Below the pieces are notes generated by a model. That model searched no databases. It was given only the letters and a program-made list of their open reading frames with translations, and was not told the origin of the DNA. Shown piece after piece: positions 14,770-44,553 of a stretch of 47,509 bases of DNA. The position numbers and the translations under genes were made by a program. Source of the stretch: Thermodesulfovibrio sp. (GTDB taxonomy: Bacteria > Nitrospirota > Thermodesulfovibrionia > UBA6902). Position 1 is the stretch's first letter, and each line of letters opens with the position of its first letter. The DNA lies in NCBI GenBank assembly GCA_026982355.1, contig JALSHG010000096.1, positions 1 to 47,509 on the forward strand. The letters run 5' to 3'.

Positions 14770-14862
14770 ACCTTAATGTTGCATAAGCCGACAGGGGAGT
14801 CCGGCGTAAAACCTCCGGACGCTCCTGCCCGCAGGCGGTGTTTTTATACCGCTGTAAGGTAA
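14767..14862 (+). repeat. Dispersed repeat copy E4 (medium form) starting at the priA stop codon
   Basis: The L end TAAACCTTAATGTTGCATAA begins with the priA stop codon itself. The inner palindrome is CAGGGGAGTCCGG and CCGGACGCTCCTG. The R end is TTTATACCGCTGTAAGGTAA. Confidence 0.9.
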
Positions 14863-14963: not shown

Positions 14964-15180
14964 TACCTTAATGTTGCACAAGCCGGCAGGGGAGTCCGCC
15001 GGAAAACCTTTATAAAGCGATTGGATATCGGAAATATGTCTTTATTGCAGGACGTAACGGAGAGTGAAATTCCAAAGGATGTCGATATGCCGTGCGGAAT
15101 ACTTCCTGAAGGTATCGCAGATAAAGCTTTTCCGCCTGACTCCCCTGCCCGCGGGCGGCATTTTTATGCCACTGTAAGGG
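14964..15180 (+). repeat. Dispersed repeat copy E5 (long form with core) before the PilZ gene
   Basis: L end TACCTTAATGTTGCACAA, arm GGCAGGGGAGTCCGCC, then a roughly 130 bp core (about 15004-15131) bounded by AAAACCTTTATAAAGC and GATAAAGCTTTT, then the arm GACTCCCCTGCC and the R end TTTATGCCACTGTAAGG. The R end is nine bases before the PilZ start and its AAGGGG serves as the ribosome binding site. The core is shared with copies E14 and E16. Confidence 0.93.
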
Positions 15181-16570: not shown

Positions 16571-17049
16571 TCAGCTGCTCATGCACGGGCAAATGTCAAT
16601 CGCTTGACAGTGTTTGCCGCTGTAAAAGACCGCAAACCGGTTCTCACGCATCAACAGACTTAAAGTCACCACTCCTTCCAATACATACATTCCGTTTTTA
16701 TTTCCTGTGGTTATAAACAGAAGGCCGTCCGCCGTCCGTCCCTGTATCCCGTCAACGGAAAACCGTATGTTCTGCGGATGATAACGGGCATACTATTTGC
16801 AGTGAGGACATGAATGAACATCTATGTTCCGAATTGCGCAAGCGGCGGTCAGACGAGCATGCCGCACGGGAGATATTTTGTTCCGTGTATCCGCCGTCGG
16901 CGTGCGGAACGGGGAAATCGGTCATGTTTATTTTAATGTCGCATAAGCGGGCAGTGGAGTCCGCCGTAAAACGTGCCGCACGCTCCCCTGCCCGCAAGCG
17001 ATGTTTTTATGCAACTGTAAGTTTAAACAACCTGGATACCTGACCATTT
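16571..17049. other. Long intergenic region before the glycosylation cluster
   Basis: This is 479 bases without a convincing gene. Near the start, GCAAATGTCAATCGCTTGAC followed by AGTGTTTGC (about 16600-16628) makes a hairpin that may end the small membrane gene's transcript. Its last hundred bases are repeat copy E7. The promoter of the plus-strand glycosylation cluster should lie in 16640-16930, but no clear -35/-10 pair is seen. A 77-residue frame at 16810-17043 runs into the repeat and is not supported. Confidence 0.45.
16930..17027 (+). repeat. Dispersed repeat copy E7 (medium form) before neuC
   Basis: L end TTTTAATGTCGCATAAG, arms GGGCAGTGGAGTCCGCCG and CGCTCCCCTGCCCGC, then GCGATGTTTTTATGCAACTG and TAAGTTTAAAC. 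The R end lies 22 bases before the neuC ATG. Confidence 0.9.
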
Positions 17050-18306
17050 ATGACGCCGTATGCAAAGAAAAAAATCTGCTTTATAACCGGCACGAGGGCA
17101 GAATATGGATTGCTGTATCCGCTCTTAAAGAGAATAAAAAACGACGAATGTTTCACTCTGCGGATAATCGCCACCGGAATGCATCTGTCTCCGGAGTTCG
17201 GCCTTACCTGCCGGGAAATAGAGGAAGACGGTTTCACTGTAAATGACAGGGTGGAAATGCTCCTCTCAAGTGATACGGATGCCGGCATTTCAAAATCCAT
17301 CGGAATCGGGATCATATCCTTTGCTGATGTATTTAAAAAAGAAAGGCCTGACATCATGACGGTACTGGGTGACAGATTTGAAACATTTGCAGCAACCCTC
17401 TCTGCTTTTATAACCAAAATCCCGGTCGCCCATCTGCATGGCGGGGAACTGAGCGAAGGTGTTATTGATGACGCAATGAGACATTCCATCACCAAGATGT
17501 CCTATCTTCATTTTGCATCCACCGAAACGTACCGGAAACGTATTATCCAGCTGGGAGAGTCTCCCGACAGGGTTTTCAATGTCGGCGCCCTGTGCATTGA
17601 CACTATAAAAGAAACCAACCTTCTTGAAAAGAATGAACTGGAAGACATGCTGGGGTTTGAATTCAATGGAAAAACCGCCCTGATTACATACCATCCGGTT
17701 ACACTGGAATCCGGCGCCCCGGGAAGACAGTTCAAGGAGCTGTTGAAGGCCCTTCAGGACACGAAGGAATTAAAGTGTATCCTTACAAAACCGAACGCTG
17801 ATAACGGAGGAAGGGAGATCGCGGGCCTGATGGATGAATTCCGGAGAAGCCATCCCGGCAGAACCGCATGTTTCACATCCCTTGGAAGAGTGAAATATCT
17901 GTCTGCAATGAAGTATGCCGATGTAGTCGTTGGAAACTCCTCCAGCGGAATCATGGAAAGCCCTGCCTTCAGAAAACCGGCCGTGAATATCGGGGACAGG
18001 CAGAGGGGAAGGATAAAGGCTGAAAGCATAATCGACTGCAGGTGCGTCAGTGAAGAAATAGCGGCTTCAATCAGGAAGGCGCTGTCACCTGATTTTCAGA
18101 GGTTGTGCAGGAATATAAAAAACCCTTATGGAGAGGGCGGGGCCTCGGAAAGGATAGCCGGCATTCTGAAAGAGATGTTATCCGGCCCCATAAACCTGAA
18201 AAAGGAGTTCTTTGATATCGGAAACATTTTGCCGGATAAAATGCCACGGGCTGAGACTGCAGGCCCGGGAAAGCCTGCCGATGCAGAAAGATATATTCAT
18301 TGCTGA
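17050..18306 (+). CDS. neuC: UDP-sugar 2-epimerase, hydrolysing (NeuC/LegG type)
   Basis: The protein has 418 residues. It matches the hydrolysing UDP-GlcNAc (or UDP-diacetylbacillosamine) 2-epimerases that free ManNAc or its 6-deoxy-diamino analogue for nonulosonic acid synthesis. Motifs: GTRAEYGLL near the N-terminus (14-22), VLGDRFETFA (about 105-114), HLHGGELSEG (about 129-138), a core HPVT and VGNSSSGIMESP (about 297-308). The C-terminal tail of about 30 residues is extra. There is no clear Shine-Dalgarno sequence before ATG 17050; repeat E7 is the leader. It is the first gene of the plus-strand glycosylation locus; whether the product is sialic, legionaminic or another acid cannot be decided because no synthase (NeuB/LegI) is present. 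Confidence 0.9.
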   Translation: MTPYAKKKICFITGTRAEYGLLYPLLKRIKNDECFTLRIIATGMHLSPEFGLTCREIEEDGFTVNDRVEMLLSSDTDAGISKSIGIGIISFADVFKKERPDIMTVLGDRFETFAATLSAFITKIPVAHLHGGELSEGVIDDAMRHSITKMSYLHFASTETYRKRIIQLGESPDRVFNVGALCIDTIKETNLLEKNELEDMLGFEFNGKTALITYHPVTLESGAPGRQFKELLKALQDTKELKCILTKPNADNGGREIAGLMDEFRRSHPGRTACFTSLGRVKYLSAMKYADVVVGNSSSGIMESPAFRKPAVNIGDRQRGRIKAESIIDCRCVSEEIAASIRKALSPDFQRLCRNIKNPYGEGGASERIAGILKEMLSGPINLKKEFFDIGNILPDKMPRAETAGPGKPADAERYIHC

Positions 18307-19348
18307 AACAGAATCCATCAAGGATGTATTGAAAAAACTCGACAGGACGGCCGAGAAACTCCTCCTGGTCACTGACCGGGACAACAGGCTTCTCGGGACC
18401 ATAAGCGACGGAGACATAAGGCGCTACCTGTTAAAGGGCAACAGTCTCGACGACAATATCGGAAATGTCTATCACAGGAAGCCCACGTTTCTCAGAAAAG
18501 GCGGGTTTTCCATGGAAGCCGCAAGGAAAATATTTCTGAAGAAAAAAATCAATCTTATCCCCCTCATAGATGAACAGGGCATTGTGGTTGATTATATAAC
18601 CTGGAACCGGGCACTTTCGGAACATGCACGGCCGCCGAAGAACGGCAGGATAAGAGTGCCGGTGGTTATCATGGCAGGCGGCAGAGGGACAAGGCTGGAG
18701 CCTTTCACCAAGATTCTTCCCAAGCCGCTGATACCCGTAAATGACAAGCCTGTTATTGAACTGATCATTGAAGAGTTCAAGAGTCAGGGCGGAAGGAGGT
18801 TTTATCTTATCCTGAACTCAAAGGGGGAGATGATAGAGGCTTATTTCAACGGCGTTGAAAAGGATTACGAAGTACGGTTTGTCAGGGAAAAAGATTTTCT
18901 CGGCACGGCAGGCGGGCTGAAGCTGCTCAAGAGGATGAACACGGATATCTTTATCGTCACCAACTGTGACGTTATTGTCAAGGCCGATTTCCAGCAGGTG
19001 ATAACCCTGCATAAAAGGCACAACGCCGTGATGACGGTATTGTCTTCAATCCAGCATCACAAGATACCCTATGGCGTCATAAGTTTCAGGGAAAAGGGTC
19101 TGGTGACCGATATACACGAAAAACCTGAATATACCGTGACGATAAATACAGGCGTATATGTGTTGAGCAGGGAGGCGGTACGCTTTATCCCCGAAAATAC
19201 ATTTTTTGACATGACCGACCTGATCAAAAAATTGATCAAAAACAACAGAAAAGTGGCAACATACCCGGTGAATGAGAATGACTACATCGATATAGGCCAG
19301 TGGGAGGAATACAAAAACGCCGTTGAAAAACTGGGGGTGTTCAGATAA
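18281..19348 (+). CDS. CBS-domain sugar nucleotidyltransferase (PtmE-like)
   Basis: The start at ATG 18281 gives 355 residues and overlaps the end of neuC; a longer frame from 18212 is unlikely. Residues 1-115 form a CBS pair (IAETESIKDVLKKLD, VTDRDNRLLGTISDGDIRR). Residues about 125-350 form a nucleotidyltransferase with the signature MAGGRGTRLEPFTKILPKPL (131-150). The layout equals Campylobacter PtmE, which makes GDP-glucosamine at the start of the legionaminic acid route. It would therefore feed the adjacent NeuC/LegG-type epimerase only if the GDP route is used; the nucleotide (GDP or other) cannot be read from the sequence. The CBS pair suggests control by adenine nucleotides. Confidence 0.88.
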   Translation: MQKDIFIAETESIKDVLKKLDRTAEKLLLVTDRDNRLLGTISDGDIRRYLLKGNSLDDNIGNVYHRKPTFLRKGGFSMEAARKIFLKKKINLIPLIDEQGIVVDYITWNRALSEHARPPKNGRIRVPVVIMAGGRGTRLEPFTKILPKPLIPVNDKPVIELIIEEFKSQGGRRFYLILNSKGEMIEAYFNGVEKDYEVRFVREKDFLGTAGGLKLLKRMNTDIFIVTNCDVIVKADFQQVITLHKRHNAVMTVLSSIQHHKIPYGVISFREKGLVTDIHEKPEYTVTINTGVYVLSREAVRFIPENTFFDMTDLIKKLIKNNRKVATYPVNENDYIDIGQWEEYKNAVEKLGVFR

Positions 19349-19360
19349 GAACCGCAAGGA

Positions 19361-19425
19361 TTAACCTTAACGTGGCATAAACGGGCAGAGGAGTCCGCCG
19401 GTGTTTTATGCAACTTTGAGGCAAA
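19361..19425 (+). repeat. Dispersed repeat copy E8 (short form) before the radical SAM gene
   Basis: L end TTAACCTTAACGTGGCATAA, a single arm GGGCAGAGGAGTCCGCCG without its partner, then TTTTATGCAACTTTGAGGC. The R end lies 20 bases before the TTG start at 19446. Confidence 0.9.
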
Positions 19426-19445
19426 GCGATGTCCGGAGGCAGCTT

Positions 19446-20834
19446 TTGAGAATACTGCTTGTCGTCTATGACAATGGCTCATATATCAGTTGGTTTCCGC
19501 AGGGTCTGGCTTATATAGCAGCGGTCTGCAAGAAGGCGGGACATGATGTGGTCATATATAACCAGGATGTTTATCACTACCCGGATGCTCACCTGACGGA
19601 ATATCTTGCGGAGAACAGGTTTGATGTCGTTGGAGTAAGCGTTATAGCAGGATATTACCAGTACAGAAAGCTCCTGAAAATCTCCGATGCGATAAACGCT
19701 GTTCCGGAGCGCCCCTTTTACATCATAGGCGGTCACGGTCCCTCACCGGAGCCCGGCTATTTCCTCAAGAAGACCCGTGCAGACATGGTGATCACAGGTG
19801 AGGGGGAAAACACGATAATCGAGGTGATGGAGGCGCTCCAGGAGAAAAAAGGTTTTCAGGATATCAAGGGTATTGCGTATATCGAAAACAACAGGCTGGT
19901 AACGACCGGCCGCCGGCCTCTCATAAGGGATATCGACAGCATCCCTTTCCCTGCTTATGAAATGTTTCCCATGGACCACTACACGTTGTTAAGAATGCCG
20001 AATATAAGAGGCACCGAGCGCTGCATACCGGTCCTTTCCGGAAGAGGCTGCACCTTTAAGTGCAGCTTCTGCTACCGCATGGACACCGGCTTCAGGCCAC
20101 GTTCGGCAGACAGCATAATAGAGGAGATAAAACTGCTGAAAAGAGACTACCATGTCGGTTACATAGCATTTTCCGACGAACTCCTGATGAGTTCGGTGAA
20201 ACGCACGGAGGAACTGTGCAGGGCCTTCTTAAAGGCCAAGCTGAATGTCAGGTGGGACTGCAACGGCCGCCTCAACTACGCCAGGCCCGACGTGCTCAAA
20301 CTCATGAAGGAGGCAGGGTGTGTTTTTATTAATTACGGCATTGAGGCCGTGGACGACACCGTGCTGAAGAATATGAACAAGGCCCTGACGGTCAAGCATA
20401 TAACAACCGGTGTGGAGAATACACTGGCTGCGGGTATCAGTCCGGGACTCAATATTATATTCGGCAACATAGGCGATAACAGGGAAACGCTGAAAAAGGG
20501 GGTGGATTTCCTGCTGAAATATGACGACCATTCACATCTGAGAACCATCCGGCCCGTCACACCGTATCCGGGCTCGCCGTTATACTACCACGCAATCAGG
20601 GAAGGTTTTTTAAGGGATGTTGAAGATTTCTACGAAAACAAACACCTCAACTCCGACCTGCTGGCCGTGAATTTTACGGATATGACGGATGAGGAGTTCC
20701 ACCGGGAGTTGCTGCAGGCCAACAAGACACTGATGAAACATTATTACGGCAGCAAGCTGCGCAAGGGGATACAGGACGCCGAAAAACTCTACCTTAACAT
20801 GGACACATCCTTCAGGGGGTTCCGTGATGTATAA
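19446..20834 (+). CDS. B12-binding-domain radical SAM enzyme
   Basis: The TTG at 19446 is chosen because GGAGG lies six bases upstream and the product then begins MRILLVVYDNGSYISWFPQGLAY-like, the normal start of the family; the GTG at 19401 lies inside a repeat. The protein has 462 residues. An N-terminal cobalamin-binding Rossmann domain (about 1-140) contains DVVGVSVIAGYYQYRK and GGHGPSPEP. The radical SAM domain has the cluster motif C-x3-C-x2-C at Cys202, 206 and 209 (GRGCTFKCSFC). Such enzymes methylate unactivated carbons or catalyse other radical changes. In this locus a sugar or lipid substrate is likely; that is inference. It overlaps the downstream neuA by a few bases. Confidence 0.88.
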   Translation: MRILLVVYDNGSYISWFPQGLAYIAAVCKKAGHDVVIYNQDVYHYPDAHLTEYLAENRFDVVGVSVIAGYYQYRKLLKISDAINAVPERPFYIIGGHGPSPEPGYFLKKTRADMVITGEGENTIIEVMEALQEKKGFQDIKGIAYIENNRLVTTGRRPLIRDIDSIPFPAYEMFPMDHYTLLRMPNIRGTERCIPVLSGRGCTFKCSFCYRMDTGFRPRSADSIIEEIKLLKRDYHVGYIAFSDELLMSSVKRTEELCRAFLKAKLNVRWDCNGRLNYARPDVLKLMKEAGCVFINYGIEAVDDTVLKNMNKALTVKHITTGVENTLAAGISPGLNIIFGNIGDNRETLKKGVDFLLKYDDHSHLRTIRPVTPYPGSPLYYHAIREGFLRDVEDFYENKHLNSDLLAVNFTDMTDEEFHRELLQANKTLMKHYYGSKLRKGIQDAEKLYLNMDTSFRGFRDV

Positions 20835-21612
20835 CAACAGGAGCGTTCTCGGTATTATTCCCGCACGCGGCGGTTCAAGGGGATTGCCGGGGAAGAATAT
20901 ACGCGAGATGTGCGGAATGCCCCTGATAGCATGGACTGTGGAGCAGGCCCTGTCCTCCAGATACCTCGACAGGGTGATTGTAAGCACGGATGACAATGAG
21001 ATTGCAGAGATATCGGAAAGGTACGGAGCGGAAGTGCCTTTTTTAAGGCCGGAGGAACTCGCAGGTGACTGCACTCCCATGATAGACGTGATTTTACATG
21101 CAGTGGATTTTTATAAAAACAAAGACATGACGTTTGACTGTATAGCCCTGATGGAGCCCACTTCACCCCTGAGGAGGATTGACGATATCGACCGTGCCAT
21201 AGAAAAATTAATCCGCCATGAAGCGGAAGCCGACAGCCTTGTGAGCGTCGGTGAAGTGAGCCTGGAGCATCCGTCCATAATGAAGAGGATAACGCGGGGC
21301 TATGTAAAACCCTATGAAGCCGGCACAGGAATCATAACGAGAAGGCAGGAGCTTGACAGGGTGTTTTTCCCCTATGGGGTCATCTATCTTTCAAAGACGG
21401 AGACGTTGCTTGAATGCAGGACATTTTACCAGCAGCGGACCATTCCGTTTTTCATAGAAAGGTGGCAGAACTATGAAGTGGACGATATATATGACTTTGT
21501 ATGCATTGAAGCCGTCATGAGCCTGATGCTGAATAAGCAGGCGGCAGGCCCTGCCGCAACAGCCTTGAAAAGAGTTTCAAAAGCTGAACCCCGGGCGGAA
21601 GGAGTCTTATAA
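20827..21612 (+). CDS. neuA: CMP-nonulosonate (N-acylneuraminate) cytidylyltransferase
   Basis: With ATG 20827 (AGGGGG seven bases upstream, start overlapping the previous stop) the protein has 261 residues. It activates a nonulosonic acid with CTP to the CMP-sugar donor. The signature IIPARGGSRGLPGKN (10-24) is complete, followed by STDDNEIAEIS (about 57-67), LRPEELAGD and LMEPTSPLR (about 115-123). It is close to LegF/NeuA/PseF; substrate preference cannot be assigned. The next gene begins immediately after its TAA. Confidence 0.92.
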   Translation: MYNNRSVLGIIPARGGSRGLPGKNIREMCGMPLIAWTVEQALSSRYLDRVIVSTDDNEIAEISERYGAEVPFLRPEELAGDCTPMIDVILHAVDFYKNKDMTFDCIALMEPTSPLRRIDDIDRAIEKLIRHEAEADSLVSVGEVSLEHPSIMKRITRGYVKPYEAGTGIITRRQELDRVFFPYGVIYLSKTETLLECRTFYQQRTIPFFIERWQNYEVDDIYDFVCIEAVMSLMLNKQAAGPAATALKRVSKAEPRAEGVL

Positions 21613-22608
21613 ATGAAAGCCTTGCAGATCGGCCTTGGCTCCATGGGTAAAAGGAGGATAAGAAACCTCTTGTCGCTGGGTATAAAGGATATAACCGGCT
21701 TTGATAAGAGGAAAGACCGGCGCAAGGAAGCGGAGGACAGGTATCATATCCGGACATCCGCCGGGCTTACGCCTGATATGTTATCGGCAAGCGATGTCTT
21801 TATTGTCTCAACCCCTCCGGACAGCCACCTTGAATATCTGAAACTGGCGGTGGAGTACGCCAGACCCGCCTTTGTCGAGGCCGGCGTCATCATGGATGGA
21901 CTCAAGGAAGTTTCAGAAGAGGCAAAGAAAAAAAACACACTGATTGCGCCTTCATGTACTTTCAGGTTTCATCCGGGTGTGAGGACGGTCAGGGATATCG
22001 TACTGGGTGGAAAATACGGCAGGTTGTGCAATTTTGTTTACGTAATGGGCCAGTATCTTCCGGACTGGCATCCATGGGAGGACATAAGGGATTTTTATGT
22101 CAGCAAGAAACAGACCAGCGCCACCAGGGAAATGGTGCCTTTTGAACTGACATGGCTTCTTGACATCACGGGATATCCCGAGGAGGTCTTTGCATTCTAC
22201 GGCAGGACCCGCGACATGGGTGTTGACATAGATGATACTTACAATGTGAATCTTAAATTCAACGGTTTCCTGGGGACTCTCGTGGTGGATGTCGTTTCGC
22301 GTTTTGCCACAAGAAGCCTTACCATGAACCTTGAAAAGGCACAGATAAGGTGGAACTGGGAAGACAGGGCCGTCAGGCTCTATGATGCCGGAAACAGGAT
22401 ATGGGAGTATTTCCACGAACCCGGGGGCAGGGCGGAATCGGATTACAATGACAATATCATAGAGGAAATGTATGTTGATGAGATGAGAGCGTTTATCGAT
22501 GCGGCAAGAGGGGTCAGGCCGTTCCCCAATACGCTTGATGAAGACATCAGGATACTGAATATCCTTGAGAAGGCGGAGCGGACCAACAGGGGCGCGGGCC
22601 TGTTGTGA
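21613..22608 (+). CDS. Gfo/Idh/MocA family sugar dehydrogenase
   Basis: The protein has 331 residues. An N-terminal Rossmann fold with GLGSMGKRR (7-15) is followed by the C-terminal alpha/beta domain of the family. VSTPPDSHLEY (about 60-70) and the CTFRFHPG block (about 114-121) match sugar-oxidoreductase members. It probably oxidises or reduces a nucleotide sugar or free sugar using NAD(P). Start ATG 21613 has AAGGAG upstream and sits directly behind the neuA stop. Similar genes occur in nonulosonate and flagellin-glycan clusters, where a role before aminotransfer is common; here an aminotransferase follows after repeat E9. Confidence 0.85.
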   Translation: MKALQIGLGSMGKRRIRNLLSLGIKDITGFDKRKDRRKEAEDRYHIRTSAGLTPDMLSASDVFIVSTPPDSHLEYLKLAVEYARPAFVEAGVIMDGLKEVSEEAKKKNTLIAPSCTFRFHPGVRTVRDIVLGGKYGRLCNFVYVMGQYLPDWHPWEDIRDFYVSKKQTSATREMVPFELTWLLDITGYPEEVFAFYGRTRDMGVDIDDTYNVNLKFNGFLGTLVVDVVSRFATRSLTMNLEKAQIRWNWEDRAVRLYDAGNRIWEYFHEPGGRAESDYNDNIIEEMYVDEMRAFIDAARGVRPFPNTLDEDIRILNILEKAERTNRGAGLL

Positions 22609-22610
22609 AC

Positions 22611-22667
22611 TTAACCTTAACGTTGCATAAGCAGGCAGGCGATGTTTTTATGCAAATGTAAGGTTAA
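22611..22667 (+). repeat. Dispersed repeat copy E9 (shortest complete form)
   Basis: L end TTAACCTTAACGTTGCATAA begins two bases after the stop of the dehydrogenase gene. Only GCAGGCAGGCGATGTT separates it from the R end TTATGCAAATGTAAGGTTAA. At 57 bp this is the minimal element. The R end is 27 bases before the aminotransferase ATG. Confidence 0.95.
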
Positions 22668-22694
22668 TTCGACTGTAAGCGGAAGGAACGACCG

Positions 22695-24014
22695 ATGAAT
22701 TGTCATACAGGCATTGATTTATATGAACGGGCCGGGAACATTATTCCGGGCGGCGCGCATCTTCTCTCGAAGAGGCCGGAAATGTTTTTGCCGGGACAGT
22801 GGCCTGCATACTACAGCAGGAGCAGGGGTGTCGAAGTCACCGACCTTGACGGCAACCGGTTTATTGATATGAGCATCTGCGGAGTAGGCGCGTGTATTCT
22901 CGGTTACGCGGACCCGGACGTTGATGCAGCGGTCAAGTCGGCTGTTGACAAAGGTACCATGAGCACCCTCAACTGCCCGGAGGAGGTTGAGCTCGCGGAG
23001 CTGCTGTGCGAACTCCATCCATGGGCCGACATGGTGAGATTCGCCAGGGGAGGCGGTGAGGCAATGTCCGTTGCCGTCCGTATTGCACGCGCCGCAACAG
23101 GCAGGGACAGGGTCGCCTTCTGCGGCTATCACGGCTGGCATGACTGGTATCTTGCAGCCAACCTTGCAGACCACAGCAATCTGGACGGCCAGTTGCTTCC
23201 CGGCCTCGACCCTGCAGGCATACCGCGTTGCCTGCAGGCCACGGCAGTGCCTTTTAACTACAATCAGACCGAGTCACTCGATGCGGCCGTCCAGGAACAT
23301 GATGGGAAACTCGCCGCAATCATAATGGAACCGGTGAGGCACTCGGAGCCCGGGAGGGGATTCCTGAGACATGTCAGAAAGACCGCCGACAAGACAGGCG
23401 CCGTCCTGATTTTCGATGAAGTCACATCCGGCTGGAGAATGAACATCGGGGGCATACACCTGTCCTATGGCATAAACCCCGACATCGCGGTCTTTGCAAA
23501 GGGCTTGAGCAACGGCTATCCGATGGCGGCGATAACCGGGATCCGTCCTGTGATGGAAGCCGCACGGAAGACGTTTATAAGCAGCACTTACTGGACTGAA
23601 AGGATCGGTCCGGCGGCGGCACTTGCGGCAATAAGAAAGATGAGCTCGCATAATGTGCCGGAACATCTGAACCGGACGGGCAAATCCGTCCGGAAGACGT
23701 GGAGGCGGGCTGCGGATGAATACGGCCTGAGGATAAGCATTAAAGGCATACCACCCCTCAGCATACTCTCATTTGATTACGGGGAAATGTCACGGGAAAT
23801 ACATACGCTCTTCACGCAGGAAATGCTGAACATGGGATTTCTGTCGTCAAAGGCTTTTTATGCAACCTACGCCCACAGGGAAGAGCACCTTAATGCCTAT
23901 GAAAGGGCTGTCGGGGAAGCTTTCAGGACAATTGCCGGCGCGATAGATAAAAACAGCATACATGAATTATTGCGCGGACCTGCAGCCCACACCGGGTTTA
24001 AAAGGCTGGCATGA
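22695..24014 (+). CDS. Class III aminotransferase (GSA aminotransferase-like)
   Basis: The protein has 439 residues with GGAAGGA before ATG 22695. It has the fold-type I PLP layout of glutamate-1-semialdehyde 2,1-aminomutase relatives: GGAHLLSKRPE, FIDMSICGVGACILGYADPDV, a PLP-phosphate block (RFARGGGEAMSVAVRIARAA), FDEVTSGWR with the PLP-binding Asp, and the Schiff-base Lys269 in VFAKGLSNG. The true HemL would sit in a haem cluster. In a sugar locus a role in amino-sugar or amino-acid side-group formation is more likely (inference). Its TGA overlaps the ATG of the TPR gene. Confidence 0.87.
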   Translation: MNCHTGIDLYERAGNIIPGGAHLLSKRPEMFLPGQWPAYYSRSRGVEVTDLDGNRFIDMSICGVGACILGYADPDVDAAVKSAVDKGTMSTLNCPEEVELAELLCELHPWADMVRFARGGGEAMSVAVRIARAATGRDRVAFCGYHGWHDWYLAANLADHSNLDGQLLPGLDPAGIPRCLQATAVPFNYNQTESLDAAVQEHDGKLAAIIMEPVRHSEPGRGFLRHVRKTADKTGAVLIFDEVTSGWRMNIGGIHLSYGINPDIAVFAKGLSNGYPMAAITGIRPVMEAARKTFISSTYWTERIGPAAALAAIRKMSSHNVPEHLNRTGKSVRKTWRRAADEYGLRISIKGIPPLSILSFDYGEMSREIHTLFTQEMLNMGFLSSKAFYATYAHREEHLNAYERAVGEAFRTIAGAIDKNSIHELLRGPAAHTGFKRLA

Positions 24015-25933
24015 TAAAGGATGAGACAATACGGCAGGGGCTCCCGGAAGCACTGGCGGATGCCCTCAGACTTCACCGGGCCGGAAATCTGGCGGAGGCC
24101 GAGTCGCTTTACCTCGGGATACTGGCTGTTGCGCCGGAATGTGCGGATGCGCTGCACCTGCTTGGATTGATTGCCTACCAGAGGGGCAACAACATGCTGG
24201 CGGTTGAATATATTGAAAAGGCCGTTGCAATAAACCCGTCCGTATCCATCTACCATAATAACCTCGGCAGTGCGTTCATGAATCTGGAGCAAACCGAAAC
24301 GGCCATGCGGTGTTTCAGGAAGGCCGTCGGTTTAGACCCTGATTATGCCGAGGCATACAATAACATGGGCAATGCCCTGAGGAGACGGGGTGAGAACAAG
24401 AAGGCCGCGAAACAGTATATGAAAGCCTTGGAGCTGAATCCCGGCCATGTCCCGGCACTCAACAACCTTGCCAACCTGCTGAAAGGAGAGGGCAGGGTGG
24501 ATGATGCAATCATGCATTACCGCAGGGCCATAAAACTGCAACCGGATATTGCGGAGACGCATTTCAATCTCGGCAATGCCCTGAAAGAAAGGGGTGACTT
24601 ACAGGGGGCCGAGGAGCATTACCGCAAGGCGGTATCGATCAGTCCTGATTTTGCAGAGGCATACAACAACCTCGCCAACATCCTCAAGAAACAAAAAAGA
24701 TATGATGAAGCCGCAGCCCTTTACCGCCGGGCAGTAAGCATCAACCCGGATTTTGCAGAGGCATATGCCAATCTGGGCGACACTTGCAGGGAGCAGGGGG
24801 CGCTTGAAGAGGCTGTCCGTCAGTGCCGCAGGGCCATAGGCCTGAATCCGGATTCCGAACACGCATATATCAATCTCGGCAATACATTTCTTGATATGGG
24901 AGACTTGCAGAAAGCCGTGGAACAGTATAACAGGGCTATTGCGCTTAAGCCTGATTCGGCCGATGCCCATTACAACAGGGGGCTTGTATTGCTCATGAAA
25001 GGCGAGTTCGGGGAAGGCTGGAAAGAATATGGATGGCGCTTTAAGAGCGCTGAAATATCCGGGGATATCGGCTGCAGCAATGCGGATGTACCCGAATGGG
25101 ACGGCTCACCGCTTAACGGCAGGAGTGTGCTGGTAAGGGCCGAACAGGGACTGGGCGACCATATCCAGTTTGTCCGTTATATCCCGCTCATAAAGGCATT
25201 GGGCGGCAGGGTTATATATGAATGCGGCAGGAGCCTTATCAGGCTGTTTGAAAACTTCAAAGGAATAGACGTTCTTTCGGAAACACCGTACGGCCCCGGG
25301 CGCGGAGAAAAACCCGACGCGTACATCAGCCTTTTGAGCCTTCCCGCCGTGTTCGGCACAACCATTGACACGATCCCCGCCGACATCCCGTATCTGTCCG
25401 TTGACAGGTATGCGGCAGGGCAATGGAAACACCGGATCAACAGTAATGCATTTAAGGTCGGGCTGGTGTGGGCAGGCAATCCGGAACACAGGAACGACCG
25501 CAACAGGTCGTGCCGGCTCCGGGATTTTGAACCGCTGGCGGCCGTCCCGGGGATTGAATTCTTCAGCCTGCAGAAAGGCGTAACAGTGACGGAGGATGAC
25601 CATACAGCCGCTGCATCACTGCATCTTGTCGATATAGCGGAGTCCCTGGGGGATTTTTATGATACAGCCGCTGTGATGGAAAACCTCGACCTTGTGATAT
25701 CGGTTGATACAGCCGTTGCCCACCTTGCCGGGGCGCTGGGCAGACCTGTATGGACCCTGCTGCCCTTTGTCCCGGACTGGAGGTGGATGCTGAAACGCGA
25801 AGATACCCCATGGTATCCGACGATGCGCCTGTTCCGCCAGGAGAGACGCGGGGAGTGGGCGGCTGTAATGAAAAGAATCGCCGTTGAATTAACCTTAATG
25901 TTGCATAAGCGGGCAGGAGGTATGTGCCGCTGA
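24011..25933 (+). CDS. TPR-repeat glycosyltransferase (GT9/GT41-like C-terminal domain)
   Basis: The protein has 640 residues. Residues about 10-345 hold some nine TPRs, each with the A-x4-NLG-NALK pattern (for example AEAYNNLANILKKQKRYDEA). Residues about 370-626 form a glycosyltransferase-B-like domain: RAEQGLGDHIQFVRYIP, KVGLVWAGNPEHRND, and DLVISVDTAVAHLAGALG near the end. Such proteins glycosylate proteins or glycans in the cytosol, with TPRs holding the acceptor. The natural protein seems to end at IAVEL; the last 14 residues (TLMLHKRAGGMCR region) are encoded by repeat copy E10, which has displaced the original stop. Start overlaps the aminotransferase stop. Confidence 0.88.
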   Translation: MIKDETIRQGLPEALADALRLHRAGNLAEAESLYLGILAVAPECADALHLLGLIAYQRGNNMLAVEYIEKAVAINPSVSIYHNNLGSAFMNLEQTETAMRCFRKAVGLDPDYAEAYNNMGNALRRRGENKKAAKQYMKALELNPGHVPALNNLANLLKGEGRVDDAIMHYRRAIKLQPDIAETHFNLGNALKERGDLQGAEEHYRKAVSISPDFAEAYNNLANILKKQKRYDEAAALYRRAVSINPDFAEAYANLGDTCREQGALEEAVRQCRRAIGLNPDSEHAYINLGNTFLDMGDLQKAVEQYNRAIALKPDSADAHYNRGLVLLMKGEFGEGWKEYGWRFKSAEISGDIGCSNADVPEWDGSPLNGRSVLVRAEQGLGDHIQFVRYIPLIKALGGRVIYECGRSLIRLFENFKGIDVLSETPYGPGRGEKPDAYISLLSLPAVFGTTIDTIPADIPYLSVDRYAAGQWKHRINSNAFKVGLVWAGNPEHRNDRNRSCRLRDFEPLAAVPGIEFFSLQKGVTVTEDDHTAAASLHLVDIAESLGDFYDTAAVMENLDLVISVDTAVAHLAGALGRPVWTLLPFVPDWRWMLKREDTPWYPTMRLFRQERRGEWAAVMKRIAVELTLMLHKRAGGMCR

Positions 25934-25938
25934 AGGTT
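25889..25938 (+). repeat. Dispersed repeat copy E10, inside the 3' end of the TPR gene
   Basis: L end TTAACCTTAATGTTGCATAA is perfect, followed by GCGGGCAGGAGG and a worn R end (TATGTGCCGCTGAAGGTTGA). The TPR frame passes through the L end in the one frame that has no stop codon. The R end is 31 bases before the DUF115 start. Confidence 0.9.
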
Positions 25939-25969
25939 GAAAAAATATGCAAATCAAAAGGAGCCCGAT

Positions 25970-28852
25970 ATGAATGATGACAGCAGGCTTGACATGGATT
26001 TTGTAGACCTGGATGAATTCATCCCCATCCCCGGACAAAGCAGGACCGAAGCCTCCGTCATGGAGAAATTTTACCGCGGTAATCTGGAGAAACTCTCCAG
26101 ACGTCATCCTGAACTGGTGGAAATCGTGGAGTCGGCAACCATTGACGGGGAAAGGATCAAAATATTTGATTCGGAAAGCGGCAATCCCAGGATAGTCTAT
26201 AAAAGAAATGACGGGGAAGAGATAAATATCCACAGCTCCGGGGATCCGATTGAATGCGCAAGACAGGCGATCGACCTGCTCGGCAGGATCGAAAAAGAGG
26301 GGATAGTCGTCCTTTTTGGATTCGGCCTGGGATATTTTGCAGAGGAGGTGTTTAAAAGATTTGAAAAGGGGCATATTCTTCTTGTATACGAGGCTGCACC
26401 GGAGATATTCAGGCTGGCCCTGAGTATAAAGGATTTTTCCGCGCTGCTGGATTCCGACCGGGTCAAAATCGTTCTGGGAGAAAATGCGGAAAATTTTTCA
26501 GTGCTCCACAGCCACCATCATCTTATCACCAACGGGAAATTCTGGATAGTCAGGCACGAGCCGTCGGTCAAAATAAACCCTGCTGCATTTGACAATTTCC
26601 TGAACAGATTAAATGAAGAAAAGCGGGTGAGCGATCTCGGGGTCGCCACTATTTTAAGCCGCGGCAAGGAATTCATAGATGCATTTATTGAAAACGTTCC
26701 GTCAATAATAAGAAAGCCCGGTGTAAGGAATCTCCGCAATATATTCAAGGGCAGACCGGCGGTTATAGTATCTGCGGGACCTTCTCTCGACAAGAATATT
26801 CATTTGCTGAAAAAGACAAAAGGAAGGGCGGTCATTGTTGCAACGGACGCCTCGCTCCCCGCGCTCCTCTCTGCGGATGTTATTCCCGACCTGGCGGTGG
26901 CGATAGACCCGGTCTCGGATAATATAGATGACAAATTCAAGGATATCCCCGTCCTGAAGGAAGTGCCCTTTATCTGTCTTGCGCAATACACCCCCGCCCT
27001 CATCCGCATGTACCCCGGTCCGTTGTTTATTAACAGTGTCCCCCAGAATATGGCCTTTCAGTGGCTTGCAAGGTTCTGGGAAGACAACGGTTATATTGAA
27101 TGTTTCGGGGGGTCCGTTGCACATTTTGCCTTTGCCGTATCCGAGTTCCTTGGTGCGGATGTTATAGCCTTTATAGGACAGGACCTTTCCTACAGCGGCG
27201 GGAGGGTCCATGCCACTGGTTATACGGACAATCTTGACAGGATACTGGAAAAGAAGACCAGAAACGGCCCCGGCAATATACCGGGAGCAATGCCGGCCGT
27301 GGATATTTTCAATGAACGTGTATATACCATCAGGCAGTTCCTGACCTTTAAAACGGCCTTTGAAAGCAGGATCAGGACATTTACCGGCATCGTCGTCAAT
27401 GCCACGGAGGGAGGATTGCCGATTGACGGGGCAGTCAATATGAGGTTTGCCGATTTTATAGACGAATACTGCGACAGTTTACATGAAACGGATACATTTT
27501 CACTGTTATCCGCTCTCTCCGACAGCCGGCCATTCTACCGTCTTGATCACCTGATAAGTGAAGTGACATCAGTAAGAAATAAATTTCGGGATATCAAAAG
27601 GGCGTCGGCACAGGTATTGAGACATATAAAAAAGGCGAAAAAATTGAAAGGCAACGAAAACAAAGATTCCCGTGAGCTCAGCAGTATACTGAAAAGGATC
27701 GAGGGGCTTATCGAAAAAGTAAGACATCCTTCGCTTAACCTGCTGGTCGGATATCATTACGGACTTGAACTCTATCTGAAAAAACACGAGATACAGGCGA
27801 TAGACGAGATACGGGATAAATGGGAAATGCTTGATAAACAACTGGAAAGGGGGCGGTTCTATTACAGCGAGATAATAAAGGCAATAAATCTTTTCAACAA
27901 GCAGCTGGACAGGCTCATAAACGCGCTCAGGAGGGAGAGAGAGATTGATTCGATACTCAACGATAATTCGACGGGAGAAGGCATAAGATACTACAAGGCC
28001 GGCATGGCATATAAAAAGGCCGGCATGACCGCCCTTGCTGTAAAGTATCTGACATCAGCGTTGAACAGCCATGGTGACGATGTTCAGGACATGTCCCTTG
28101 ACGGCATTCACAACTCTCTCGCCGGGATGTACATAAAGCAGTGCAGATTTTATGAGGCGCGGGAAATACTGGAAGGCATGCTTGCCCGAAAAGGCGCAAC
28201 TGATGAGAAAAAAGAGAAGGTTCTCGATATGCTCAAGGTGTGCAATATGAAAATCCGAGTCTGGGAGAGCAAAAGAACAGAGATGGCGAAACAGCTTGAA
28301 AATGCGGAGGCGAACTACGGTTCTCACCTGGAATCAGGGTACTTCTATTTCAGGATAAAAGACTTCAGGAGAGCTGAGAAGGAATACCGGAAGGCGGTCG
28401 CGTGGCGGCGGCAGCGACAGGAACCGCCGATAATAACCGCCCCTGCTGCTTCAGAAAAGGCAGATGAACAGAAAATGCTGCTTGAGGCCTTTTACGGCCT
28501 TGCTCATACTTACCTGGCCATGGACGATCCTGAACAGGCCGTGGATGCCCTTGAGGAAGCCGTCAAGATCGCCCCCGACAACCCTGTTCTGTACCGTGAT
28601 CTCGGCCTGATAGCTTTCCAGAATAATGACATTTCATCCGCCGAGATATTTTTTTCCAGGGCCATAGAGCTGGCGCCTCACGCGGTGGAGCTGTATAAGA
28701 CTTTAGCCGGTCTTTACATTGGTTCGGCACGGACGGAAAAGGCCATTGCGCTTTACGACAGGGCGCTTCGCATAAACCCCGGCAATCCGTCTATCCAGCA
28801 GGACCTTGCAATGCTTCTGAAGCATGAAGTGACAAGGATGGAAAAACGCTGA
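25970..28852 (+). CDS. DUF115 / Maf-type motility-associated glycosyltransferase with C-terminal TPRs
   Basis: Start ATG 25970 has AAGGAG six bases upstream; 960 residues. The central domain (about 255-430) is the 6-hydroxymethylpterin-pyrophosphokinase-like DUF115 fold, with GRPAVIVSAGPSLDKN, VATDASLPALL and DLAVAIDPVSDN. Maf proteins of this family transfer nonulosonic acids (pseudaminic or legionaminic) onto flagellin Ser/Thr in the cytosol. Upstream residues 60-240 match the Maf N-terminal domain (FGFGLGYFAEEV). A helical region (540-680) and several TPRs (about 660-960, for example ALEEAVKIAPDNPVLYRDLG) follow, an extension beyond ordinary Maf proteins. It ends the nonulosonate gene set and probably uses its CMP-sugar. 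No flagellin gene is in the window. Confidence 0.88.
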   Translation: MNDDSRLDMDFVDLDEFIPIPGQSRTEASVMEKFYRGNLEKLSRRHPELVEIVESATIDGERIKIFDSESGNPRIVYKRNDGEEINIHSSGDPIECARQAIDLLGRIEKEGIVVLFGFGLGYFAEEVFKRFEKGHILLVYEAAPEIFRLALSIKDFSALLDSDRVKIVLGENAENFSVLHSHHHLITNGKFWIVRHEPSVKINPAAFDNFLNRLNEEKRVSDLGVATILSRGKEFIDAFIENVPSIIRKPGVRNLRNIFKGRPAVIVSAGPSLDKNIHLLKKTKGRAVIVATDASLPALLSADVIPDLAVAIDPVSDNIDDKFKDIPVLKEVPFICLAQYTPALIRMYPGPLFINSVPQNMAFQWLARFWEDNGYIECFGGSVAHFAFAVSEFLGADVIAFIGQDLSYSGGRVHATGYTDNLDRILEKKTRNGPGNIPGAMPAVDIFNERVYTIRQFLTFKTAFESRIRTFTGIVVNATEGGLPIDGAVNMRFADFIDEYCDSLHETDTFSLLSALSDSRPFYRLDHLISEVTSVRNKFRDIKRASAQVLRHIKKAKKLKGNENKDSRELSSILKRIEGLIEKVRHPSLNLLVGYHYGLELYLKKHEIQAIDEIRDKWEMLDKQLERGRFYYSEIIKAINLFNKQLDRLINALRREREIDSILNDNSTGEGIRYYKAGMAYKKAGMTALAVKYLTSALNSHGDDVQDMSLDGIHNSLAGMYIKQCRFYEAREILEGMLARKGATDEKKEKVLDMLKVCNMKIRVWESKRTEMAKQLENAEANYGSHLESGYFYFRIKDFRRAEKEYRKAVAWRRQRQEPPIITAPAASEKADEQKMLLEAFYGLAHTYLAMDDPEQAVDALEEAVKIAPDNPVLYRDLGLIAFQNNDISSAEIFFSRAIELAPHAVELYKTLAGLYIGSARTEKAIALYDRALRINPGNPSIQQDLAMLLKHEVTRMEKR

Positions 28853-32212: not shown

Positions 32213-32306
32213 CCCCTTACAGCGGGATAAAAACACCGCCTGCGGGCAAGGGGGCCGGAGGTTTTAGGGCGGACTCCCCTGCCGGTTTACGCAACATTAA
32301 GGTTAA
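32213..32306 (-). repeat. Dispersed repeat copy E12 (medium form); provides the cooC2 stop codon
   Basis: On the minus strand the L end TTAACCTTAATGTTGCGTAA contains the TAA stop of the second cooC gene (32303-32305). The inner arms are GGCAGGGGAGTCCGCC and GCCCCCTTGCCCGC. The R end is TTTATCCCGCTGTAAGGGG, 29 bases before the SGNH start. Confidence 0.92.
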
Positions 32307-36729: not shown

Positions 36730-36950
36730 TTACCTTACAGCGGCATAACATCCAGCCGGCGGGGCACAGGGGTCCGCCGGAAAAGCTTTATCCGCGATAT
36801 CTTGGAGAGTATTCCGCACGGCATATCGACATCCTCTGGAATTTCACTCTCCGTTACGTCCTGCAATAAAGACATATTTCCGATATCCCGTCGCTTTATA
36901 AAGGTTTTACGGCGGACTCCTGTGTACGTTTATGCAACATTAAGGTTTAA
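36730..36950 (-). repeat. Dispersed repeat copy E14 (long form with core) between the MscS-like and ClC genes
   Basis: On the minus strand the L end TTAAACCTTAATGTTGCATA contains the TAA stop of the MscS-like gene (36947-36949). The arm GGAGTCCGCC is followed by the shared core (about 36781-36909) and GTAAAACCTTTATAAAGC ... GATAAAGCTTTTCCGGCGG, then TTATGCCGCTGTAAGGTAA. The core carries the same 27-base invariant block as E5 and E16. Confidence 0.93.
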
Positions 36951-42936: not shown

Positions 42937-43159
42937 ATAACCTTATCAGTTGCATAAAAACACCGCCCGCCGGCTGTGGAGTCCGGCGGAAAAGCTTTAT
43001 CTGCGATACATCTAGGACATATCCCGCACGGCATATTGCCGTCCTTTGCAATTTCACTCTCCGTTACGTCCTGCAACAGGGACATATTTTCAATATCCCA
43101 TCGCTTTATAAAGGTTTTACGCCGGACTCCACAGCCGGCTTATGCAACATTAAGGATAA
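42937..43159 (-). repeat. Dispersed repeat copy E16 (long form with core)
   Basis: On the minus strand: TTATCCTTAATGTTGCATAA, GCCGGCTGTGGAGTCCGGCG, the shared core (about 42989-43119, with AAAACCTTTATAAAGC and GATAAAGCTTTT ends), GGACTCCACAGCCGGCGGGC, and TTTTTATGCAACTGATAAGG. An extra AT is present in the R end compared with the consensus. The R end lies 83 bases before the ATG at 42853. Confidence 0.93.
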
Positions 43160-44457: not shown

Positions 44458-44553
44458 ATAACCTTACAGTTGCATAAAACACCACCCGCGGGCAGGAGAG
44501 TCCGGCGGTTTTCCGCCGGACTCTCCTGCCGGCTTATGCAACATTAAGGATAA
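44458..44553 (-). repeat. Dispersed repeat copy E18 (medium form, perfect inner palindrome)
   Basis: The inner arms GGCAGGAGAGTCCGGCGG (44491-44508) and its exact complement (44513-44530) enclose a TTTT loop. L end on the minus strand is TTATCCTTAATGTTGCATAA, R end TTTTATGCAACTGTAAGGTT. The R end lies 22 bases before the GpgS-like start. The L end faces the divergent glycerate kinase. Confidence 0.95.

Follow-up and report, generated by a model that had tools for sequence, protein, structure and literature searches.

How can a locus that holds genes for releasing, activating and transferring a nonulosonic acid operate when no enzyme for building the acid lies beside them, and what part does a B12-type radical SAM enzyme play in such company? 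Motility, surface recognition and the attachment of phages all depend in part on nonulosonic acids, the group to which sialic acid belongs. The question is raised by eight genes at positions 17050–28852 of a contig of 47,509 nucleotides from Thermodesulfovibrio sp. (assembly GCA_026982355.1, contig JALSHG010000096.1), here called the window, i.e., the whole stretch of DNA that was analysed. The window is contig C96 of a Nitrospirota assembly (G000) of 119 contigs and 2.62 Mb, rated 100% complete. The gene order is neuC/legG, a ptmE-like gene, the B12-type radical SAM gene, neuA/legF, a Gfo/Idh/MocA gene, a class III aminotransferase gene, a gene for a tetratricopeptide repeat (TPR) protein with a putative glycosyltransferase part, and a Maf-type gene for an MptE-like protein with TPRs. 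All eight are intact open reading frames on the + strand. Profile matches confirm this order and these families as they had been proposed from the sequence (the original prediction), the nature of the locus as one for nonulosonate and Maf-type protein glycosylation (NeuC, NeuA, PtmE and MptE-like/Maf families), and the lack of a NeuB/LegI/PseI synthase, a dehydratase and a flagellin in the window. The conclusion drawn here is that the radical SAM enzyme, with a putative substrate and reaction, is dedicated to the tailoring of nonulosonates and is set upon a flagellin glycosylation pathway that is Maf-linked and of a largely standard legionaminic type. In this reading a legionaminic-type CMP-nonulosonate pathway is split, and the window probably carries its second half, combined with Maf-type flagellin glycosylation and the one tailoring enzyme, the contig with the leg genes most likely not having been recovered.

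The other half is found in relatives. Two genomes of the same genus (G001 and G002), whose radical SAM proteins are 95% and 94% identical to that of the window, carry legB, legC, neuD, legI and a further radical SAM gene as one operon on separate small contigs. In G002, LegB (499 bits, cut-off 475), NeuB (510, cut-off 400) and NeuD (196, cut-off 161) exceed the curated cut-offs, and LegC falls narrowly under its own (396.5 vs 420). G003, which belongs to the same family, carries legC, neuD and a gene in which LegI is fused to a radical SAM domain, next to flgK/flgL/fliW-like genes; in G061, a further Nitrospirota genome, the genes run legB-legC-neuD-legI-radical SAM. Both genomes keep the radical SAM-neuA-maf locus apart from the leg locus. 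Every sampled relative with the same cluster (these four genomes) retains NeuB somewhere, and within this group the pathway as a rule occupies two loci. In G018 the whole set stands in a single run (legB-legC-neuD-neuB-neuC-ptmE-SDR-Gfo-radical SAM-neuA), and it is likewise unsplit in other relatives. The original prediction's description of the system as one without a nonulosonate synthase is not upheld: congeners and relatives encode a standard LegB, LegC, NeuD and LegI set at a second locus, and the assembly under study is the only one from which it is absent. Nor does a complete set with its own NeuA and Maf, accompanied by radical SAM homologues confined to unrelated genes, describe what was found, because the congeners' second locus has no neuA or maf on the contig pieces examined and the radical SAM homologues sit with nonulosonate genes.

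The radical SAM gene next to legI is of a different kind. In G003 (L164:9679-11655) the LegI/NeuB synthase and a radical SAM domain are fused in one 659-aa frame; in G001, G002, G005 and G061 the corresponding domain is a separate adjacent gene. The legionaminic synthase is thus linked to a radical SAM family other than that of the window enzyme.

In the assembly under study, the only NeuB-family match in the whole 2.62 Mb is a DAHP synthase, and a synthase encoded elsewhere in this assembly was rejected on that account. The best match to LegB in the assembly is 33% identical (vs 95-100% in the congeners), and a DNA search with the congeners' leg block returned only short or repeat matches, with partial scoring of candidates, so that the protein-level searches were relied on. 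The dUTPase gene that adjoins the block in the congeners has no counterpart in the assembly; as a marker of an unrecovered contig this is suggestive but weak, because G003 has no dUTPase either, yet keeps NeuB. Such absences, in an assembly with this completeness rating, would also fit a strain that has truly lost legB-legC-neuD-legI and in which the genes left over are of no further use since that recent loss, or handle a scavenged or otherwise supplied sugar. This is unlikely, however: the window genes contain no stops or frameshifts and are under purifying selection, with ratios of nonsynonymous to synonymous substitution (dN/dS) of 0.05-0.25 (0.05-0.06 for the radical SAM gene), and all four relatives named above keep NeuB. 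The intact genes and low ratios argue that the pathway works and that a contig was not recovered, which is the most likely explanation of the missing half. Upstream of neuC the congeners' contigs break off at the very point where synteny would tell a deletion from a gap.

The presence of NeuC and NeuA homologues in an assembly without NeuB could also be taken to mean that the radical SAM enzyme, or another enzyme, stands in for NeuB and builds the acid itself. Yet 30 of the 32 sampled genomes that carry the radical SAM gene also have NeuB, in most cases within one cluster with it; only this genome and G079 do not. Thus, the radical SAM enzyme does not replace NeuB; the congeners with 94-95% identical enzymes have LegI, and a synthase-independent route is highly improbable.

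What the enzyme accompanies can be seen from its orthologues, taken as proteins of at least 60% identity in a scan of one genome per species, which gave 80 loci in many bacterial phyla and in archaea. Carriers include the cultured Heliobacterium chlorum, Geomonas silvestris and Desulfoscipio geothermicus. The cluster motif of the window enzyme is CTFKCSFC (CxxxCxxC). In the 64 aligned orthologues, C202, C206 and C209 are invariant and the mean column identity is 74%, and in a quick tree the orthologues form a clade on a long stem, apart from other B12-type radical SAM proteins and with a patchy taxonomic spread. On either side of 38 of the 84 loci, 8 kb or more of flank was available; in 31 of these 38, NeuB, detected by BLAST clusters, lies within about 10 kb. 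The independent count is 30/36, because the window itself is among the 38 and one place was entered twice (L025 = L070). Two or more nonulosonate genes are present in 34 of the 38, and at least one in 75 of all 84 loci. By comparison, only 1 of 141 B12-type radical SAM paralogues (<35% identity) from this genome and its relatives lies within 11.5 kb of NeuB, as positioned by the SAF domain (Fisher p about 1e-26 against 31/38, a contrast that is strong but not exact, since detectors and genome sets differ). With the same detector in the same genomes the figures are 3/9 orthologues (several at contig ends) and 1/141 (p 6e-4).

These counts bear on the possibility that the radical SAM gene is a passenger of surface-glycan islands whose product acts on another glycan or on a lipid. 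The islands carry many other glycan genes, the immediate neighbours of the gene vary, and the nearest NCBIfam models include lipid enzymes, e.g., HpnJ. The neighbourhood of NeuB, however, is rare among the paralogues, and for the present clade it recurs across many phyla on a patchy gene tree, so that a mere passenger is quite improbable. The comparison of neighbourhoods establishes the clade as a real and specific associate of nonulosonate clusters; in this respect the original prediction is borne out, and a non-standard sugar, as in the earlier idea of an unusual modified nonulosonate system, is what the association would imply.

Two further arrangements deserve mention. In another NeuB cluster, that of G020 (L166:5233-13979), the gene for a different B12-radical SAM protein (32-34% identity) is flanked by a Gfo gene and by one for a class III aminotransferase that is 58% identical to the aminotransferase of the window; the Gfo-radical SAM-aminotransferase trio may be a recurring module. 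A protein of about 400 aa with no Pfam or NCBIfam match is encoded in 12/84 radical SAM loci (L066:8633-9838 and 11 others), in several of them adjoining the radical SAM gene.

As for the acceptor, each of the three assemblies of the genus (G000, G001 and G002) has one Flagellin_N match; in G000 and G001, where this protein was inspected, its sequence shows it to be FlgL. The search of the rest of this genome for flagellin found only this protein, and it was rejected as the flagellin. Flagellar genes are present in all three assemblies, and the true flagellin of the genus may be missing from them or divergent. In G003, the maf orthologue is followed by a flagellin gene and then, by eye, by FlaG- and FliD-like genes, and at L059 a flagellin gene lies near maf. 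That flagellin is the acceptor for the group is a sound inference.

Several observations weigh against this reading as a whole. The three assemblies of the genus yielded no true flagellin; LegB, LegC-locus DNA and LegI are absent here although the assembly is rated 100% complete; the control for the NeuB association used a different detector from the survey; and some radical SAM loci have a short NeuB (271-293 aa) without neuC and legB. By the last of these, the substrate is not legionaminic acid in the strict sense. Nor is any one partner gene universal: HisF/HisH/WbpG-type amidation genes, SDR, Gfo and class III aminotransferase genes are each confined to a minority of the loci. Taken together, this suggests as the substrate of the radical SAM enzyme a feature that NeuB products share, e.g., the nonulosonate or its CMP form.

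The structure of the enzyme is predicted with confidence (AlphaFold2, pLDDT 94). No NCBIfam cut-off was exceeded: BchE (145 bits) and HpnJ (138 bits) score far below theirs, and NF033070, the AprD4-type diol dehydratase, gives 67 of the 500 bits called for. The B12-binding domain exceeds its cut-off of 32.1 bits. In a Foldseek search MgmA came first by E-value and AprD4 had the top TM-score (0.77/0.79), followed by TsrM, CysS and OxsB. By sequence profile the best of the solved structures is AprD4 (82.6 bits), over the radical SAM part only (from residue 193), whereas the alignments with OxsB, MgmA, CysS and TokK take in the B12-binding part too, and cobalamin binding is therefore likely. Such binding would be compatible with methylation and with other radical steps alike. 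If the enzyme does tailor a nonulosonate, an AprD4-like radical dehydration/deoxygenation or an epimerisation, rather than cobalamin-dependent C-methylation, has a little less than an even chance: AprD4 is the nearest match by sequence profile and by TM-score and has a sugar substrate, but the N-terminal domain aligns with the cobalamin binders and not with AprD4, and scores 62.5 bits as a B12-binding domain.

The scheme that follows builds on gene content, the split locus in relatives, the association of the radical SAM clade and purifying selection, as observed, and on the predicted fold; substrates, reaction and order are suggested from these. LegB, LegC and NeuD, encoded at the other locus, would make a GDP- or UDP-linked 2,4-diamino-trideoxy sugar, with PtmE supplying the GDP-sugar. 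NeuC/LegG would release the 2-epimerised sugar, LegI (other locus) would condense it with phosphoenolpyruvate, and NeuA/LegF would activate the product with CMP. With the nonulosonate or its CMP form as substrate, the radical SAM enzyme may use radical chemistry to alter an unactivated carbon, whether by C-methylation or by AprD4-like deoxygenation or epimerisation. The Gfo protein and the class III aminotransferase probably provide a lineage-specific redox/amino step, and the Maf-like protein, with the help of the TPR protein, would transfer the sugar to flagellin.

The pathway itself is already known in kind; the radical SAM tailoring enzyme is the new part. To our knowledge, the known routes to nonulosonic acids contain no radical SAM step. 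A literature search, whose coverage left out most subscription papers, found no paper in which "radical SAM" occurs together with "legionaminic acid" or with "nonulosonic acid", and the titles and opening parts of abstracts on nonulosonate, sialate and flagellin glycosylation in relation to radical SAM or cobalamin do not describe this enzyme. The balance tips slightly towards the view that an unrecognised cobalamin-type radical SAM clade, in many bacterial phyla and some archaea, turns standard nonulosonic acids into a new class by C-methylation, deoxygenation or epimerisation of an unactivated carbon. If so, undescribed sugars are the products of a substantial share of the nonulosonate clusters in the environment. 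The organisms that carry the enzyme probably decorate their surfaces with an undescribed sugar variant. The conservation of the enzyme in nonulosonate clusters across so many phyla points to a common undescribed sugar, and the cultured carriers offer a directly testable enzyme.

Features of the eight-gene locus and its repeat arms, in window coordinates
Feature	Position	Strand	Profile evidence
neuC/legG, hydrolysing GDP/UDP-sugar 2-epimerase	17050..18306	+	TIGR03568 470 bits, cut-off 236
ptmE-like, CBS + sugar-1-phosphate nucleotidyltransferase, GDP branch of legionaminic route	18281..19348	+	NTP_transferase 116 bits, CBS 46 bits
B12-type radical SAM enzyme, 462 aa	19446..20834	+	Radical_SAM 79.5 bits, B12-binding 62.5 bits
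neuA/legF-like CMP-nonulosonate cytidylyltransferase	20824..21612	+	CTP_transf_3
Gfo/Idh/MocA-type oxidoreductase	21613..22608	+	GFO_IDH_MocA_C3 36 bits, above cut-off
Class III (glutamate-1-semialdehyde-aminomutase-like) pyridoxal phosphate aminotransferase	22695..24014	+	Aminotran_3 141 bits
TPR protein, C-terminal glycosyltransferase-like region (original prediction's assignment)	24011..25933	+	TPR arrays, residues ~20-335
Maf-type (MptE-like/DUF115) glycosyltransferase with C-terminal TPRs, 971 aa	25937..28852	+	MptE-like 135 bits
Repeat-element arms directly upstream of neuC	16933..17021	.	
Further single repeat arms at operon gene boundaries	19364-19401, 22614-22642, 25892-25917		

The closest solved structure to NeuC is a GDP/UDP-diNAc-bacillosamine 2-epimerase (5zlr, E 2e-105), which fits LegG. 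Alignment with homologues moved the start of the ptmE-like gene, whose counterparts occur in 52/84 radical SAM loci, from the TTG at 18212 of the listed frame to the ATG at 18281, and placed that of the radical SAM gene at the TTG at 19446, behind an AAGGAGG-like site, rather than the GTG at 19401. NeuA clearly belongs to the CMP-sialate-synthetase type: its closest solved structures are CMP-NeuAc synthetases (E 3e-34) and its best NCBIfam model is PseF (151 bits, below the cut-off of 206), a family assignment that does not fix its likely substrate. Gfo genes related to that of the window were found in 23/84 loci, and the class III aminotransferase is PRK06209-like (267 bits, below cut-off). 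The TPR gene keeps its position ahead of maf in G001 and G003; for its product, no Pfam glycosyltransferase domain was among the 25 families listed. The Maf-type protein passes the MptE-like cut-off (34.6 bits) and, weakly, that of Maf_flag10_N (25.0 bits, cut-off 23.5), and scores 122 bits, below cut-off, with the PseD model NF050051. The proposed fusion of DUF115 to TPRs is thereby seen in the profile matches, and the glycosyltransferase part of the preceding protein keeps its earlier assignment as a candidate only. No RNA families were found in the window.

The repeat arms in the table belong to a dispersed REPIN/MITE-like element of about 215 bp with inverted arms of about 29 bp. Copies in the window lie at 14965-15179, 36733-36946 and 42941-43155, with further arms at 14770-14859, 16933-17021, 32215-32303 and 44462-44549, and a DNA search found its end region at 39 or more places in the genome. 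Upstream of neuC, an intergenic stretch of about 200 bp (16634-16829) is 72% like L160:247-443, which lies upstream of an unrelated TPR gene in G001; possibly, the two share a promoter region.

Among known systems, the Campylobacter-type legionaminic pathway (LegB, LegC, LegH/NeuD, LegG/NeuC, LegI/NeuB, LegF/NeuA, PtmE/PtmA/PtmF) is matched by the LegG-, LegF- and PtmE-type genes of the window and by LegB, LegC, NeuD and LegI in the congeners; it differs in that here a radical SAM enzyme and a class III aminotransferase are added, the genes form two loci, and the leg half is absent from the assembly. With the Maf flagellin glycosyltransferases, the window protein shares the MptE-like core, the weak Maf N-terminal match and, in relatives, the adjoining flagellin, but it is fused to C-terminal TPRs and stays under the PseD cut-off. 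AprD4, the radical SAM diol dehydratase of apramycin, resembles the radical SAM enzyme most closely among solved proteins by sequence and TM-score and acts on a sugar, whereas identity over the fold is 16% and the N-terminal domains are dissimilar by sequence. The cobalamin-dependent radical SAM enzymes BchE, HpnJ, OxsB, MgmA, CysS and TokK have the same architecture of B12-binding and radical SAM parts, with an N-terminal domain that aligns; the enzyme of the window differs in that it matches the BchE and HpnJ models far under their cut-offs and stands in a long-stemmed clade of its own.

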